31,555 bases of DNA from a virus. The notes below the pieces were generated by a model. It was given only the letters and a program-made list of their open reading frames with translations. It had not been told where the DNA came from and ran no database searches. The position numbers and the translations under genes were made by a program. The stretch spans positions 1 to 31,555 of IMG/VR virus record IMGVR_UViG_3300007735_000606. One strand, written 5' to 3'. Shown here piece after piece: positions 23,008 to 25,939 of the stretch. Each line of letters begins with the position of its first letter. Within the stretch, counting starts at the first letter, position 1.

Positions 23008-23087
23008 AACTCTCCTCACCGTTTGTATGTTAACTAGCGGGGATTATGTTAACCAAATTAAAAACCTAATACACCTGCCGCGAAGCG

Positions 23088-23127
23088 TGTAGCTCTTTAA
23101 CGGGCTTGAGCGCCCGAGCGAGCTACA
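23088..23127 (-). promoter_or_regulatory. Two-tier stem-loop in the terminase leader
   Basis: TGTAGCTC (23088-23095) pairs with GAGCTACA (23120-23127), enclosing an inner CGGGC/GCCCG stem (23101-23105 with 23112-23116). It lies about 80 bases upstream of the terminase start. Possible attenuator or leader element; also could be a weak terminator. Confidence 0.5.
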
Positions 23128-23170
23128 GCGAAGTGAGGGGTAGAATGGTACTCATCCCTATAGGATGCTA

Positions 23171-23235
23171 CCTAGGAGCGGAGTCTTCGACGCAGCGACT
23201 CCTTAGGTCGTAAAACTCATAACAGTCCGTTTTAC
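23171..23235 (-). promoter_or_regulatory. Two further stem-loops in the terminase leader
   Basis: First: GGAGTC (23180-23185) with GACTCC (23197-23202), extended by CCTA (23171-23174) with TAGG (23204-23207). Second: GTAAAAC (23210-23216) with GTTTTAC (23229-23235), 12-base loop. With the element at 23088-23127 they make three consecutive structures ahead of the virion operon. Confidence 0.45.
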
Positions 23236-23303
23236 TCCCCTACTATATATAAGGCAGGAAATCTGGTCGATTTCCCGCTTACTGGTAAAAAACTTTATAT
23301 GAT

Positions 23304-23317
23304 GTGACGTAAGTCAC
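23304..23317. promoter_or_regulatory. Operator-like inverted repeat
   Basis: GTGAC-GTAA-GTCAC, a perfect five-base inverted repeat in AT-rich DNA next to a TATAT-rich stretch. Its size suits a dimeric repressor or activator. Binding is inference. Confidence 0.35.
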
Positions 23318-23442
23318 TATATATAGCTATATTGGTACCCAAAATATTGACTTTAGGAAAAATATTTGTAATGGGTATATACCCCCTTGCGAATCAGAAT
23401 TAAGCAATGGGGGGTCTTGTTTTGCGCCTAGACCCTTCCCGA

Positions 23443-23480
23443 ACGCCCTAAAGGGCGTGAGATATTGCCCTAGCGGGCAA
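23443..23480. promoter_or_regulatory. Two adjacent short hairpins
   Basis: ACGCCCT/AGGGCGT (23443-23458) and TTGCCC/GGGCAA with loop TAGC (23465-23480), six bases apart. No T-run on either side. Could be bidirectional RNA ends or protein-binding sites. Confidence 0.4.
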
Positions 23481-23778
23481 GGATTAAGCGGATAGGGGAT
23501 TATAATAAAGGTCTTGGATTACTAACCATTCGGCAACTATCTGCCCCCCCAAATTGCCTCATCTAATCGCTAACGCTCACCGCTAACCATCACCGCCAAC
23601 TGATCAACCGCCACCAGTTGCTAACCGATCTCGTGCCCTTGATTCGCCCTACCTCTTACCCCTACCCCTTCCACTAATCGGCCTTATAGGCCAACCTCGC
23701 CCCTCTTTTTTCCGCCCTTCTTCCCCTTTTCGGTGGCTCTATGCGTAAAGCTCGCCCTTGTTGCCTTGCCCTGATTTG

Positions 23779-23866
23779 TAGCTGAAGACCGGTCTCCTGG
23801 TTTGCGGAGCTGAAGATTTACGCTCAAAAGCCCCGAGCTGGACTCAGTAGCAAACCTCGAGCTGAA
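23779..23866 (+). repeat. Four AGCTG direct repeats at 28/28/24-base spacing
   Basis: Repeats start at 23779 (TAGCTGAAGA), 23807 (GAGCTGAAGA), 23835 (GAGCTGGA) and 23859 (GAGCTGAA). The near-constant spacing is unusual for chance and places sites on a similar helical phase (about 2.5 turns apart). They lie just before the first plus-strand gene, so regulator sites or origin iterons are both possible. Confidence 0.4.
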
Positions 23867-23892
23867 CAAAAGAAACACCTCAAACCTATGAT
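23862..23892 (+). promoter_or_regulatory. Weak candidate promoter for the plus-strand arm
   Basis: A good -10 (TATGAT, 23887-23892) lies 67 bases before the first plus-strand ATG, but the -35 region (around CTGAAC, 23862-23867) is poor and spacing is long, so an activator or phage sigma may be needed. Tentative. Confidence 0.25.
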
Positions 23893-23958
23893 AGACACCT
23901 CTACCTTTTGTGCTACCCTAAAGCCATTGGGGAAACGCCTCAATAAGGAAGGCAACAA

Positions 23959-24156: not shown

Positions 24157-24332
24157 TGAATAAAACAATGCAACAAAGAGAAGAAATTCATTTGGCAATG
24201 CAAGAAGATATCGGCAACATCATCTCCAAGCATTTACCAAATTTTGACAACAATATAAAAAACGAGACTTGGTCTCTGCTTTGCCTTTTTCTAGATGAGA
24301 CCATCTACCAATTATCTACATTAGAAAACTAG
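24156..24332 (+). CDS. Small helical hypothetical protein
   Basis: 58 residues from the ATG at 24156, which has the strong AGGAGGAG just before it; the frame is open further upstream but that part lies in the preceding gene. Sequence MNKTMQQREEIHLAMQEDIG continues helical to LDETIYQLSTLEN. One-base overlap with the upstream stop implies coupled translation. Function unknown. Confidence 0.7.
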   Translation: MNKTMQQREEIHLAMQEDIGNIISKHLPNFDNNIKNETWSLLCLFLDETIYQLSTLEN

Positions 24333-24383
24333 ACCGAAACCCCTTCGGGGGTCTTGCCGTAATTCGGCAACTGACGAGGTCAG
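24331..24383 (+). promoter_or_regulatory. Three consecutive hairpins before the SprT-like gene
   Basis: ACCCC-TTCG-GGGGT (24339-24352, a stable UUCG tetraloop), TTGCCG/CGGCAA (24354-24370, loop TAATT) and CTGAC-GAG-GTCAG (24371-24383), followed by AAAAAAGACAGGAG and the ATG. GACC (24332-24335) could also pair with GGTC (24378-24381), enclosing the first two hairpins much like the three leaders downstream. The first hairpin may act as a terminator of the two small genes; no T-run follows. Confidence 0.55.
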
Positions 24384-24402: not shown

Positions 24403-25098
24403 ATGAAAACCGCAACAAAAACCGCAACAAAAACAAAAACCGCTGGAGATATTTTCCAAGCACCAAAAACCGAAAACCTTTCGGTTATTGTAAAAGCACT
24501 TGAAGAGGCTCACGCCTTAATCCAAAAAGAAACCGACGCCCCAAGGGCGGTTATTTCAATTGGACGCTCTTCAAAAGTCCACGGACATTTCACACCTTGG
24601 ACACCTTGGGGAACAAATGAAAAAGACGGCGAGAAATTTCACGAGATTTTTATTTCTGCCTCATCTTTTGACCGTGGCGCAGAAGCAATCCTTGGCACAC
24701 TTTTGCACGAGACTGCCCACTCTTTAGATGTTAAGGCTGGAAGAAATGGCGTCAGCCAAGAGGGCTATCACAACAAAACTTTCAAGGCCACCGCAGAAAG
24801 TTTAGGCCTAGAAATTGAGCAGGCCAAGCGGATTGGCTGGAGCACCACTAAAGTCCCTGCCAGTTGCATCAAAAGATGGGAGCAGGCATTTGGAATTATT
24901 GCTGAGGCTTTAAAGTTAGTTGCGGTCAATGATAGCGAAAAGCCAAAAGGCAGAAATAAGAATAATAAAGTGGCCGTATGCCAATGCGGAGAGAAAATCC
25001 GCTTAAGTCTTAAGACATACAATCTCACCCGACCAGTTTGCCAAAACTGCGAGAGTGAATTCAAACTAGAGGACGAGGAGGGAAACGGGGACGAATAG
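24403..25098 (+). CDS. SprT-like zinc metallopeptidase with C-terminal zinc ribbon
   Basis: 231 residues. The zinc motif HETAH is at 102-106 inside LGTLLHETAHSLDV, with a further His at 123 (GYHNKTF) as likely third ligand, matching SprT/Spartan-type peptidases. A C-terminal ribbon has C193/C195 and C213/C216 (CQCG ... CQNC), as in SprT proteins. The N-terminus is a repeated KTATKTATKTKTA stretch from a short DNA repeat. In eukaryotes such enzymes cleave DNA-protein crosslinks; the bacterial and phage role is not settled. The start has AGACAGGAG, the arm's standard site, preceded by three hairpins. Confidence 0.85.
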   Translation: MKTATKTATKTKTAGDIFQAPKTENLSVIVKALEEAHALIQKETDAPRAVISIGRSSKVHGHFTPWTPWGTNEKDGEKFHEIFISASSFDRGAEAILGTLLHETAHSLDVKAGRNGVSQEGYHNKTFKATAESLGLEIEQAKRIGWSTTKVPASCIKRWEQAFGIIAEALKLVAVNDSEKPKGRNKNNKVAVCQCGEKIRLSLKTYNLTRPVCQNCESEFKLEDEEGNGDE

Positions 25099-25120
25099 TC
25101 CCCCTGCCCTATTGACAACA

Positions 25121-25195
25121 GCCCGCCAAGGTGGAAAAATCCGAGGTGCAAATCCTCAGACGGGCACAAGTAAGGAAAGAAATTCTTTCCTACTT
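25121..25195 (+). promoter_or_regulatory. Structured RNA leader, copy 1 (before the gene at 25211)
   Basis: Outer stem GCCCG/CGGGC (25121-25125 with 25161-25165) encloses CCA-TGG (25126-25128/25132-25134) and GAGG-CCTC (25143-25146/25154-25157, loop TGCAAAT). After the linker AC comes AAGTA-GGAAAG pairing with CTTTCC-TACTT (25168-25195, one bulged A, five-base loop). Then AAGACAGGAG, five A and the ATG at 25211. A TTGACA at 25113-25118 sits just before the element but a matching -10 would lie inside it. Same architecture as copies 2 and 3. Confidence 0.75.
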
Positions 25196-25210
25196 AAGAC
25201 AGGAGAAAAA

Positions 25211-25348
25211 ATGAAAACGACCACTTACAACGGAAAAGAAATTAACGTTGTCTTTAATTATGGCGGATTAGCCTATGCTTATTTCGTGGGATATTCAAAT
25301 AAAGATATATTTGCAATCTCTCCCGAATTATTGGAGGCGGTAAAGTAA
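25211..25348 (+). CDS. 45-residue hypothetical protein
   Basis: MKTTTYNGKEINVVFNYGGL then AYAYFVGYSNKDIFAISPEL, LEAVK. The ATG at 25211 follows the AAGACAGGAG site; the open frame upstream is the leader RNA. Beta-rich, with aromatic residues and no Cys. I do not recognise a family. The elaborate leader suggests controlled expression. Confidence 0.7.
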   Translation: MKTTTYNGKEINVVFNYGGLAYAYFVGYSNKDIFAISPELLEAVK

Positions 25349-25355
25349 TTTAATA

Positions 25356-25431
25356 GCCCCCCACCCTTAACCAGAGGGCGAAGGTTCACGACCTAGCGGG
25401 GCACGGGTTGGAGGGAAATTCCTTCCTACTT
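25356..25431 (+). promoter_or_regulatory. Structured RNA leader, copy 2 (before the gene at 25455)
   Basis: Outer stem GCCCC/GGGGC (25356-25360 with 25398-25402) encloses CCCT-AGGG (25364-25367/25375-25378) and AGGT-ACCT (25382-25385/25391-25394, loop TCACG). Linker AC (25403-25404), then a 27-base hairpin 25405-25431: GGGT.GGAGGG with CCTTCC.ACTT, loop AAATT, several G.U pairs and one mismatch. Then AAGACAG, eight extra bases (AACGACAG) and GAGAAAAA before the ATG; this copy alone has the ACAG duplicated, giving a longer spacer. Confidence 0.75.
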
Positions 25432-25454
25432 AAGACAGAACGACAGGAGAAAAA

Positions 25455-25706
25455 ATGCTGGTAAGAATAGCAACGACAAACGACGCAAGCGGAAACCCAA
25501 GACGGGGCTGGTTAAGACTAACCGCAGGCGGTCAGGTTATAGGCTGGACAGAGGAGGGCTATCTTGGGCGTGGTGCAATTGAAGGATACGACGACGGAGA
25601 AAGCCCTACGATTTACGTCAAGCCTTCAGAGTATAAGCGGTTCAAAAAATGGGGCGAGACAATTCAAGAAAACTTTACAGAAGAGGAATTAGGTCTTAAG
25701 GCGTAA
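25455..25706 (+). CDS. 83-residue hypothetical protein
   Basis: MLVRIATTNDASGNPRRGWL then RLTAGGQVIGWTEEGYLGRG; later DDGESPTIYVKPSEYKRFKK and an acidic end ENFTEEELGLKA. Looks like a compact beta domain with a charged helix at the end. ATG follows CAGGAG. CTTAAG occurs near its 3' end. No family recognised. Confidence 0.75.
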   Translation: MLVRIATTNDASGNPRRGWLRLTAGGQVIGWTEEGYLGRGAIEGYDDGESPTIYVKPSEYKRFKKWGETIQENFTEEELGLKA

Positions 25707-25715
25707 AGAAAGACA

Positions 25716-25789
25716 GCCCTCCGCCCATAAGATGGCGACGGTTCAAGACCGACGGAGGGCACAAGTTGGAAGGAGATACTTTCCGACTT
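25716..25789 (+). promoter_or_regulatory. Structured RNA leader, copy 3 (before the gene at 25805)
   Basis: The best-formed copy: outer stem GCCCTCCG/CGGAGGGC, eight perfect pairs (25716-25723 with 25753-25760), enclosing CCAT-ATGG (25725-25728/25732-25735, loop AAG) and CGGT-ACCG (25739-25742/25748-25751, loop TCAAG). Linker AC, then a 27-base, 11-pair hairpin 25763-25789 (AAGTTGGAAGG with CTTTCCGACTT, loop AGATA, two G.U pairs). AAGACAGGAGACAAA then leads to the ATG at 25805. Confidence 0.78.
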
Positions 25790-25804: not shown

Positions 25805-25939
25805 ATGAAAAGAGAAAAAAGGTTATGTGTTGTATGTAATCAAAAATCAATTGTGTTTGAAATTGATTACAAAGAAAACAGAGCAGAGGCTTGCTCTAAT
25901 TGTATTACTGAAAACCTGTTAACGGGCTGGAGTAAATAA
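25805..25939 (+). CDS. 44-residue zinc-finger-like protein
   Basis: MKREKRLCVVCNQKSIVFEI then DYKENRAEACSNCITENLLT, GWSK. Two CxxC pairs (C8/C11 and C30/C33) spaced as in a zinc ribbon. The start has the standard AAGACAGGAG site. Probably a small metal-bound DNA-, RNA- or protein-contact module; no named family. Confidence 0.72.
   Translation: MKREKRLCVVCNQKSIVFEIDYKENRAEACSNCITENLLTGWSK

Follow-up and report, generated by a model that had tools for sequence, protein, structure and literature searches.

Three consecutive small genes in the window, the whole 31,555-base stretch of DNA that we analyzed, are each preceded by one copy of a folded RNA element that recurs throughout a group of freshwater actinophages. 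The element is probably a cis-acting intercistronic RNA cleavage element and the functional counterpart of the type-II hammerheads of the same phages. It consists of a three-way junction, formed by a closing stem P1 of 5 to 8 bp and the hairpins P2 and P3, followed by the invariant dinucleotide AC and then by P4, a hairpin of its own. From 5' to 3', the order is P1, P2, P3 (with a 7-nt loop), a linker beginning with A, P1', AC, P4, and the ribosome site.

As a virus record, the window carries genes for a terminase, a sigma factor, and a glycosyltransferase, together with an ORF that we read as whiB-like. This gene set resembles that of the family of LanE43AprE7 and LanE43AprF5, isolated phages of "Ca. 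Planktophila," an abundant freshwater actinobacterium (PMC10202952). The features around the three copies are as follows.

24332 to 24381, plus strand: predicted type-II hammerhead (sequence; Rfam Hammerhead_II) in the leader of the SprT-like gene, where the preceding ORF ends (stop codon at 24330 to 24332)
24403 to 25098, plus strand: gene for a SprT-like protein (ORF), between the hammerhead and copy 1 of the element
25112 to 25140, plus strand: promoter-like TTGACA-N17-AAAAAT (sequence), overlapping copy 1 and kept in close relatives; possibly an extra promoter at this copy
25121 to 25167, plus strand: junction of copy 1 (structural scan and fold), with P1 at 25121 to 25125 and 25161 to 25165, P3 loop TGCAAAT, and AC at 25166 to 25167
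25168 to 25195, plus strand: P4 of copy 1 (z = -4.2), directly 5' of AAGACAGGAG
25211 to 25348, plus strand: small gene 1 (ORF, 45 aa), belonging to no family
25356 to 25404, plus strand: junction of copy 2, with P1 GCCCC/GGGGC, P2 CCCT/AGGG, P3 loop TTCACGA, and AC at 25403 to 25404
25405 to 25431, plus strand: P4 of copy 2 (z = -2.3)
25455 to 25706, plus strand: small gene 2 (ORF, 83 aa), a member of cluster 4
25716 to 25762, plus strand: junction of copy 3, with P1 GCCCTCCG/CGGAGGGC (8 bp), P2 CCAT/ATGG, P3 loop TTCAAGA, and AC at 25761 to 25762
25763 to 25789, plus strand: P4 of copy 3 (z = -5.4)
25805 to 25939, plus strand: small gene 3 (ORF, 44 aa)

The product of the SprT-like gene belongs to PHROG 6361 (E = 1e-36), a family of unknown function; its SprT-like annotation comes from distant matches, and it has 46 relatives in IMG/VR. 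A stretch of about 0.9 kb (23020 to 23958) that separates the late genes, which run leftward, from the rightward small-gene region has no convincing genes and is possibly an origin or regulatory region.

All three leaders (25121 to 25195, 25356 to 25431, and 25716 to 25789) share one fold, and every pairing that a sequence-only reading of this DNA had proposed for them was found in place. P2, P3, the AC linker, and the P4 hairpin were as that reading described them, as was the compensatory change at the fifth pair of P1 (GCCCG/CGGGC in copy 1 and, in the other two, the stems listed above), and P1 of copy 3 does extend to eight pairs. That reading gave P4 11 pairs and a loop of five bases throughout, which holds only approximately: copy 1 has a one-base bulge, and the minimum free energy loops span 3 to 5 nt. 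The sequence ACTT followed by AAGACAG is present at the 3' end of P4, but it belongs to a widespread CTTAAGAC motif repeated throughout these genomes and is therefore not specific to the element. When the leaders were folded with RNAfold, the z-scores were -3.0, -1.5, and -5.7 for copies 1, 2, and 3; by this value and that of its P4, copy 2 alone is unexceptional. The covariance model matched copy 2 with 35.9 bits (E = 2e-4 over 880 kb) and copy 3 with 32.1 bits (E = 1.4e-3 over 880 kb). Copy 1 is absent from the covariance-model listings and is conserved in close relatives. Copy 2 begins 7 nt 3' of the upstream stop codon.

The initial view of the leaders as a local triplication had to be abandoned. 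We gathered related contigs in two ways, by the ribosome-binding site (RBS) motif ACTTAAGACAGGAGA and by the SprT-like protein encoded upstream of copy 1, and detected the element with a structural scan and the covariance models R1 and R2. The covariance models placed about 170 occurrences in about 100 freshwater actinophage contigs; the fetched related loci held 158 matches (structural scan and R1/R2). The element was present in 25 of 29 long contigs, with at most four copies per phage, and it was flagged in 19 of the 25 members of cluster 4, the cluster of small gene 2, whose orthologues in other phages mostly come after an element as well. The isolated Planktophila phage LanE43AprE7 (OX376640.1) carries three copies, each just 3' of a stop codon and 5' of a GACAGGAG site. 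The fold is restricted to the sense strand: among 652 distinct leaders preceding GACAGGAG-type ribosome sites, a structural scan without a trained model, requiring G/C-C-C at the start of P1, found it in 77 in the sense direction, in 2 in the antisense direction, and in none in each of ten dinucleotide shuffles. An earlier structural scan lacking the G/C-C-C filter yielded no convincing copies with another P1 start. For bacteria we obtained two weak negatives, 0 loci in genome_contigs for one specific 28-nt pattern and 0 of 198 genomes of Cryobacterium's class with R2 at an E of ≤0.001 (a search whose filters lose weak matches and that had no positive control). A looser pattern of a CRP site plus GCC occurred at 39 genome_contigs loci, which come from many different phyla and seem to be chance matches.

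Covariation strongly supports selection on RNA structure, which the sequence-only reading had thought likely from three copies, and it holds in a larger alignment. In the R2 alignment of 103 distinct sequences, for which seeds were picked by structure and the alignment was fitted to structure, 92.5% of cells pair, compared to 71.3% after shuffling. Two-sided changes were found in 301 cells, against 87.5 ± 8.4 in shuffled alignments and at most 44 when the partners were slid by 1 to 3 columns, and both sides change in 12 of the 14 pairs. The A2 seed alignment gave the same picture. Covariation was again visible in the leaders of orthologues of the 83-aa gene, picked by protein similarity only, where P1 reads GCCCC/GGGGC in the window, GCCTTGC/GCAAGGC in L043, GCCTCCG/CGGAGGC in L051, and GCCCCAA/TTGGGGC in L076. 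The paired fraction in the R2 alignment was 98.9% for P1 and 99.0% for P3; that of P2 was 75%, which we count against the cleavage reading.

Within this variable framework, a few positions do not change. Among 36 sequences of less than 85% identity, the outer P1 pairs GCC/GGC (two G-U pairs excepted), the AC after P1, and positions 3 (C) and 6 (G) of the P3 loop are invariant, whereas P1 pairs 4 to 7 and P3 vary freely. The wider set has rare exceptions at P1 position 1 and at the P3-loop G. Such fixed bases amid free helix variation are as expected for a sequence-specific cut site. The P3 loop, usually closed by a G-C pair, has the form (U/A)(U/G)C(A/G)N(G/A)N, its length of 7 nt having been required by the structural scan. 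In 88 of 108 copies, the P3 loop and the end of P1 are 12 nt apart, and in the other 20 they are 11 nt apart, in a scan that permitted other helix-length sums as well. P4 starts 0 to 2 nt past the AC in most copies and has a median folding z-score of -2.6.

The case for cleavage starts from the gene just upstream. The leader of the SprT-like gene contains the predicted hammerhead at 24332 to 24381 (GACC-GAAA-CCCCTTCGGGG-GTC^TTGCCGTAATTCGGCAA-CTGACGA-GGTC), which has the type II layout, with the core residues, loop-closed stems I and III, and an open stem II. Against Rfam Hammerhead_II (RF02276), its score of 26.9 bits (E = 6e-4 for 121 nt) stays under the gathering threshold of 37; with the same model, two hammerheads in L083 score 41.5 and 35.1, one of them above gathering. 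Cleavage is predicted after C24353 and would leave the stem I hairpin (24354 to 24370) at the mRNA 5' end. A pattern scan revealed about a dozen further hammerheads in related contigs, nearly all directly 5' of a AAGACAGGAG-type site. Some unrelated viral contigs (L269, L273, and L290) contain five or six type-II hammerhead patterns within 6 to 14 kb.

Hammerhead and element exchange for one another in the slots of four orthologous gene families. The SprT slot holds a hammerhead in the window, L068, L083, and L095 and the element in L051 (in most other phages, it holds a promoter-like leader with a 5' hairpin). Hammerhead and element alternate likewise at cluster 18 (hammerhead in L045 and L107, element in L078), cluster 22 (L095 and L114, against L107), and cluster 27 (L083, against L046). 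Both RNAs occupy a slot between cotranscribed genes and share a layout of stable fold, 2-nt linker, hairpin, and RBS. They differ in secondary structure and in the CUGANGA/GAAA core: Rfam hammerhead models do not match the element, and the core CUGANGA...GAAA...NUH is absent from its alignment. In prophages, hammerheads flanking single genes have been proposed to process long transcripts into mRNAs of gene length, and the multi-hammerhead examples that were tested cleaved (PMC3088659). The slot exchange, the common layout, and this precedent make cleavage the simplest reading of the element. Counted against it is the finding that type-II hammerheads in other phages mostly occur without the element (both in 2 of 79 loci).

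Under the cleavage reading, transcripts running through several small genes would carry the element just behind a stop codon. There it would fold as the P1/P2/P3 junction, and the cut would fall at the invariant AC that separates P1 from P4 or immediately beside it. One product, the upstream mRNA, would end in the folded junction, which may protect its 3' end; the other, the downstream mRNA, would open with the P4 hairpin, which may protect its 5' end, and continue into the ribosome site AAGACAGGAG. About 40% of copies seem to be overlapped by a promoter, with a CRP-like site abutting P1 and, in most, a -35-like hexamer within P2; at these copies, initiation and cleavage would yield similar 5' ends.

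The position of the element relative to genes is nearly constant, in that, with two exceptions among the 114 copies for which an upstream open frame was found, this frame ends 6 to 42 nt 5' of P1. What surrounds it falls into three contexts. In 44 of 115 distinct copies, a CRP-like TGTGA-N6-TCACA abuts P1, in most of them together with a TTGACA-like hexamer inside P2, an arrangement that resembles a promoter lying across the element. Since a probable promoter overlaps some 40% of copies, the conservation of sequence (TTGACA in P2 and TCACA upstream) is partly at the DNA level. Another 44 of the 115 have neither a CRP site nor a -35 motif there, and the RBS of the next gene stands directly behind P4; a CRP-like site is found further downstream in 3 of these 44, and 41 have none. 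In about 20 copies, the hairpin is followed by a CRP-type promoter instead of an RBS, and a palindromic CRP site often occupies the place of P4. TGTGA-N6-TCACA also recurs where these phages have promoters, a -35-like hexamer lying 10 to 11 nt downstream of it (e.g., L065, L094, and L148), and the CRP-type pattern occurs in 76 stretches in viral_contigs.

These contexts bear on the functions that the sequence-only reading had offered. mRNA processing is favored by the hammerhead exchange, the position behind stop codons, and the roughly 40% of copies without a promoter motif. A ligand switch finds no support, since the copies in a phage, up to four, precede unrelated small genes, and neither does a standby site alone, because a promoter rather than an RBS follows about 20 copies. 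The same 20 copies indicate that providing a 5' end for the next gene is not the only role of the element. A phage or host protein might instead bind the element and control translation or decay of the neighboring small genes without any cutting. Several copies per phage before different genes would suit such a posttranscriptional regulon, as would the invariant loop and stem residues. It would, however, leave unexplained the exchange with hammerheads at the same genes, the constant post-stop position, and the copies that precede a new promoter, and we regard it as quite improbable.

A boundary between transcription units, at which the fold ends the upstream transcript and the overlapping or following promoter starts the next, is in our view very unlikely. 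The element does always lie at gene ends, and the promoter-like contexts (44 of 115 copies abutted by a CRP-like site, mostly with the hexamer in P2, and some 20 more ahead of a CRP-type promoter) would agree with it. Yet no U tract follows P1 or P4: an intrinsic terminator, a G+C-rich hairpin with a U tract, was looked for at both, and what comes next is AC(N)AG after P1 and CTTAAGAC or a promoter after P4. At the 44 promoterless copies directly before an RBS, termination would silence the gene, and promoter constraints do not explain why P1 and P3 covary.

Comparison with known RNAs yielded no Rfam 15 family above the gathering threshold (the whole window was searched at gathering, and 1.7 kb of it plus 64 kb from relatives that bear copies were searched at an E-value threshold). 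Subthreshold matches to Plastid-ycf2 and NsiR4 were judged to be chance. The Mu-gpT-DE and freshwater-2 RNAs resemble the element as phage or freshwater RNAs with hairpins 5' of an RBS, but their weak subthreshold matches fall mainly on the RBS, score far under gathering, and share no junction with it. Twister-sister and the other small self-cleaving Rfam classes are likewise small junction RNAs with a few invariant unpaired bases; none matches the element, and its P1 is continuous, without the catalytic internal loop of twister-sister (PMC11620745). The motif is unreported in the searchable papers, whose coverage is incomplete. With neither an Rfam match nor a literature report, the RNA family appears to be undescribed.

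A likeness to tRNA and tRNA-like RNAs (RF00005) raises an alternative that keeps the processing role. The element could be a reduced tRNA mimic that has acceptor, D-like, and T-like arms but lacks the anticodon arm; host RNase P would cut it at the 5' side and/or host RNase Z behind a discriminator-like A. Its acceptor-like stem has about 7 bp, its T-like P3 loop has 7 nt and is usually G-C closed, and (A/G)C comes right after the stem. Despite the variable length of P1, the distance of 12 or 11 nt from the P3 loop to the P1 end equals the tRNA ruler from T loop to acceptor end; 11 to 12 nt is also about one turn of an A-form helix. Furthermore, a tRNA-Arg(ACG)-like gene with an A1.G72 mismatch lies directly 5' of another gene's RBS, only a few bases away and in the manner of a leader, in two loci (L043, 3087 to 3158, minus strand; L051, 6618 to 6689, plus strand). 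We nevertheless consider a mimic unlikely, as neither the Rfam tRNA covariance model nor ARAGORN matches the element. The U54-A58 pair of the T loop is not kept (P3-loop position 5 varies, leaving the A58 equivalent unconserved), the letters in the place of a 3' CCA vary, and the D-loop GG is absent. Enzymes that read shape would also not require the invariant GCC/GGC. A weak tRNA-model match in another sequence (G005) reads as ordinary coding-like sequence.

For the cleavage reading, we tentatively favor the RNA itself as the catalyst, making it a candidate new self-cleaving class; the exchange with a ribozyme, the sequence-specific end of P1, and the invariant unpaired bases point this way. 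It is conceivable, though short of probable, that freshwater Nanopelagicales phages use a new small ribozyme, interchangeable with hammerheads, that cuts polycistronic transcripts into single-gene mRNAs at the AC. To our knowledge, the known classes of self-cleaving ribozymes are few, and for most of them the natural role in bacteria and phages has yet to be settled. An apparently undescribed RNA family that takes the place of a known ribozyme in front of the same genes suggests a concrete role, the dividing of phage mRNAs. The role we propose is of a known kind, ribozyme-like division of phage mRNA, and the RNA family appears to be new. Self-cleavage, if true, would add a ribozyme class; cutting by tRNA-processing enzymes would make the element a phage counterpart of mitochondrial tRNA punctuation. 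LanE43AprE7 was isolated as a lysing phage of the cultured "Ca. Planktophila" strain LanE-43 (PMC10202952), and its three copies of the element, together with the cultured host, make in vivo end mapping feasible.

Across 1.38 Mb of related loci, the CTTAAGAC motif at the end of P4 is found in about 1,600 distinct contexts. In the window, the palindrome GTCTTAAGAC (core CTTAAG) is strongly enriched, having 14 sites with at most one mismatch, where 1.1 are expected, both within and between genes (e.g., at 25007, 26358, 27973, 31004, and 31417). The palindrome may be a dispersed DNA-binding site.
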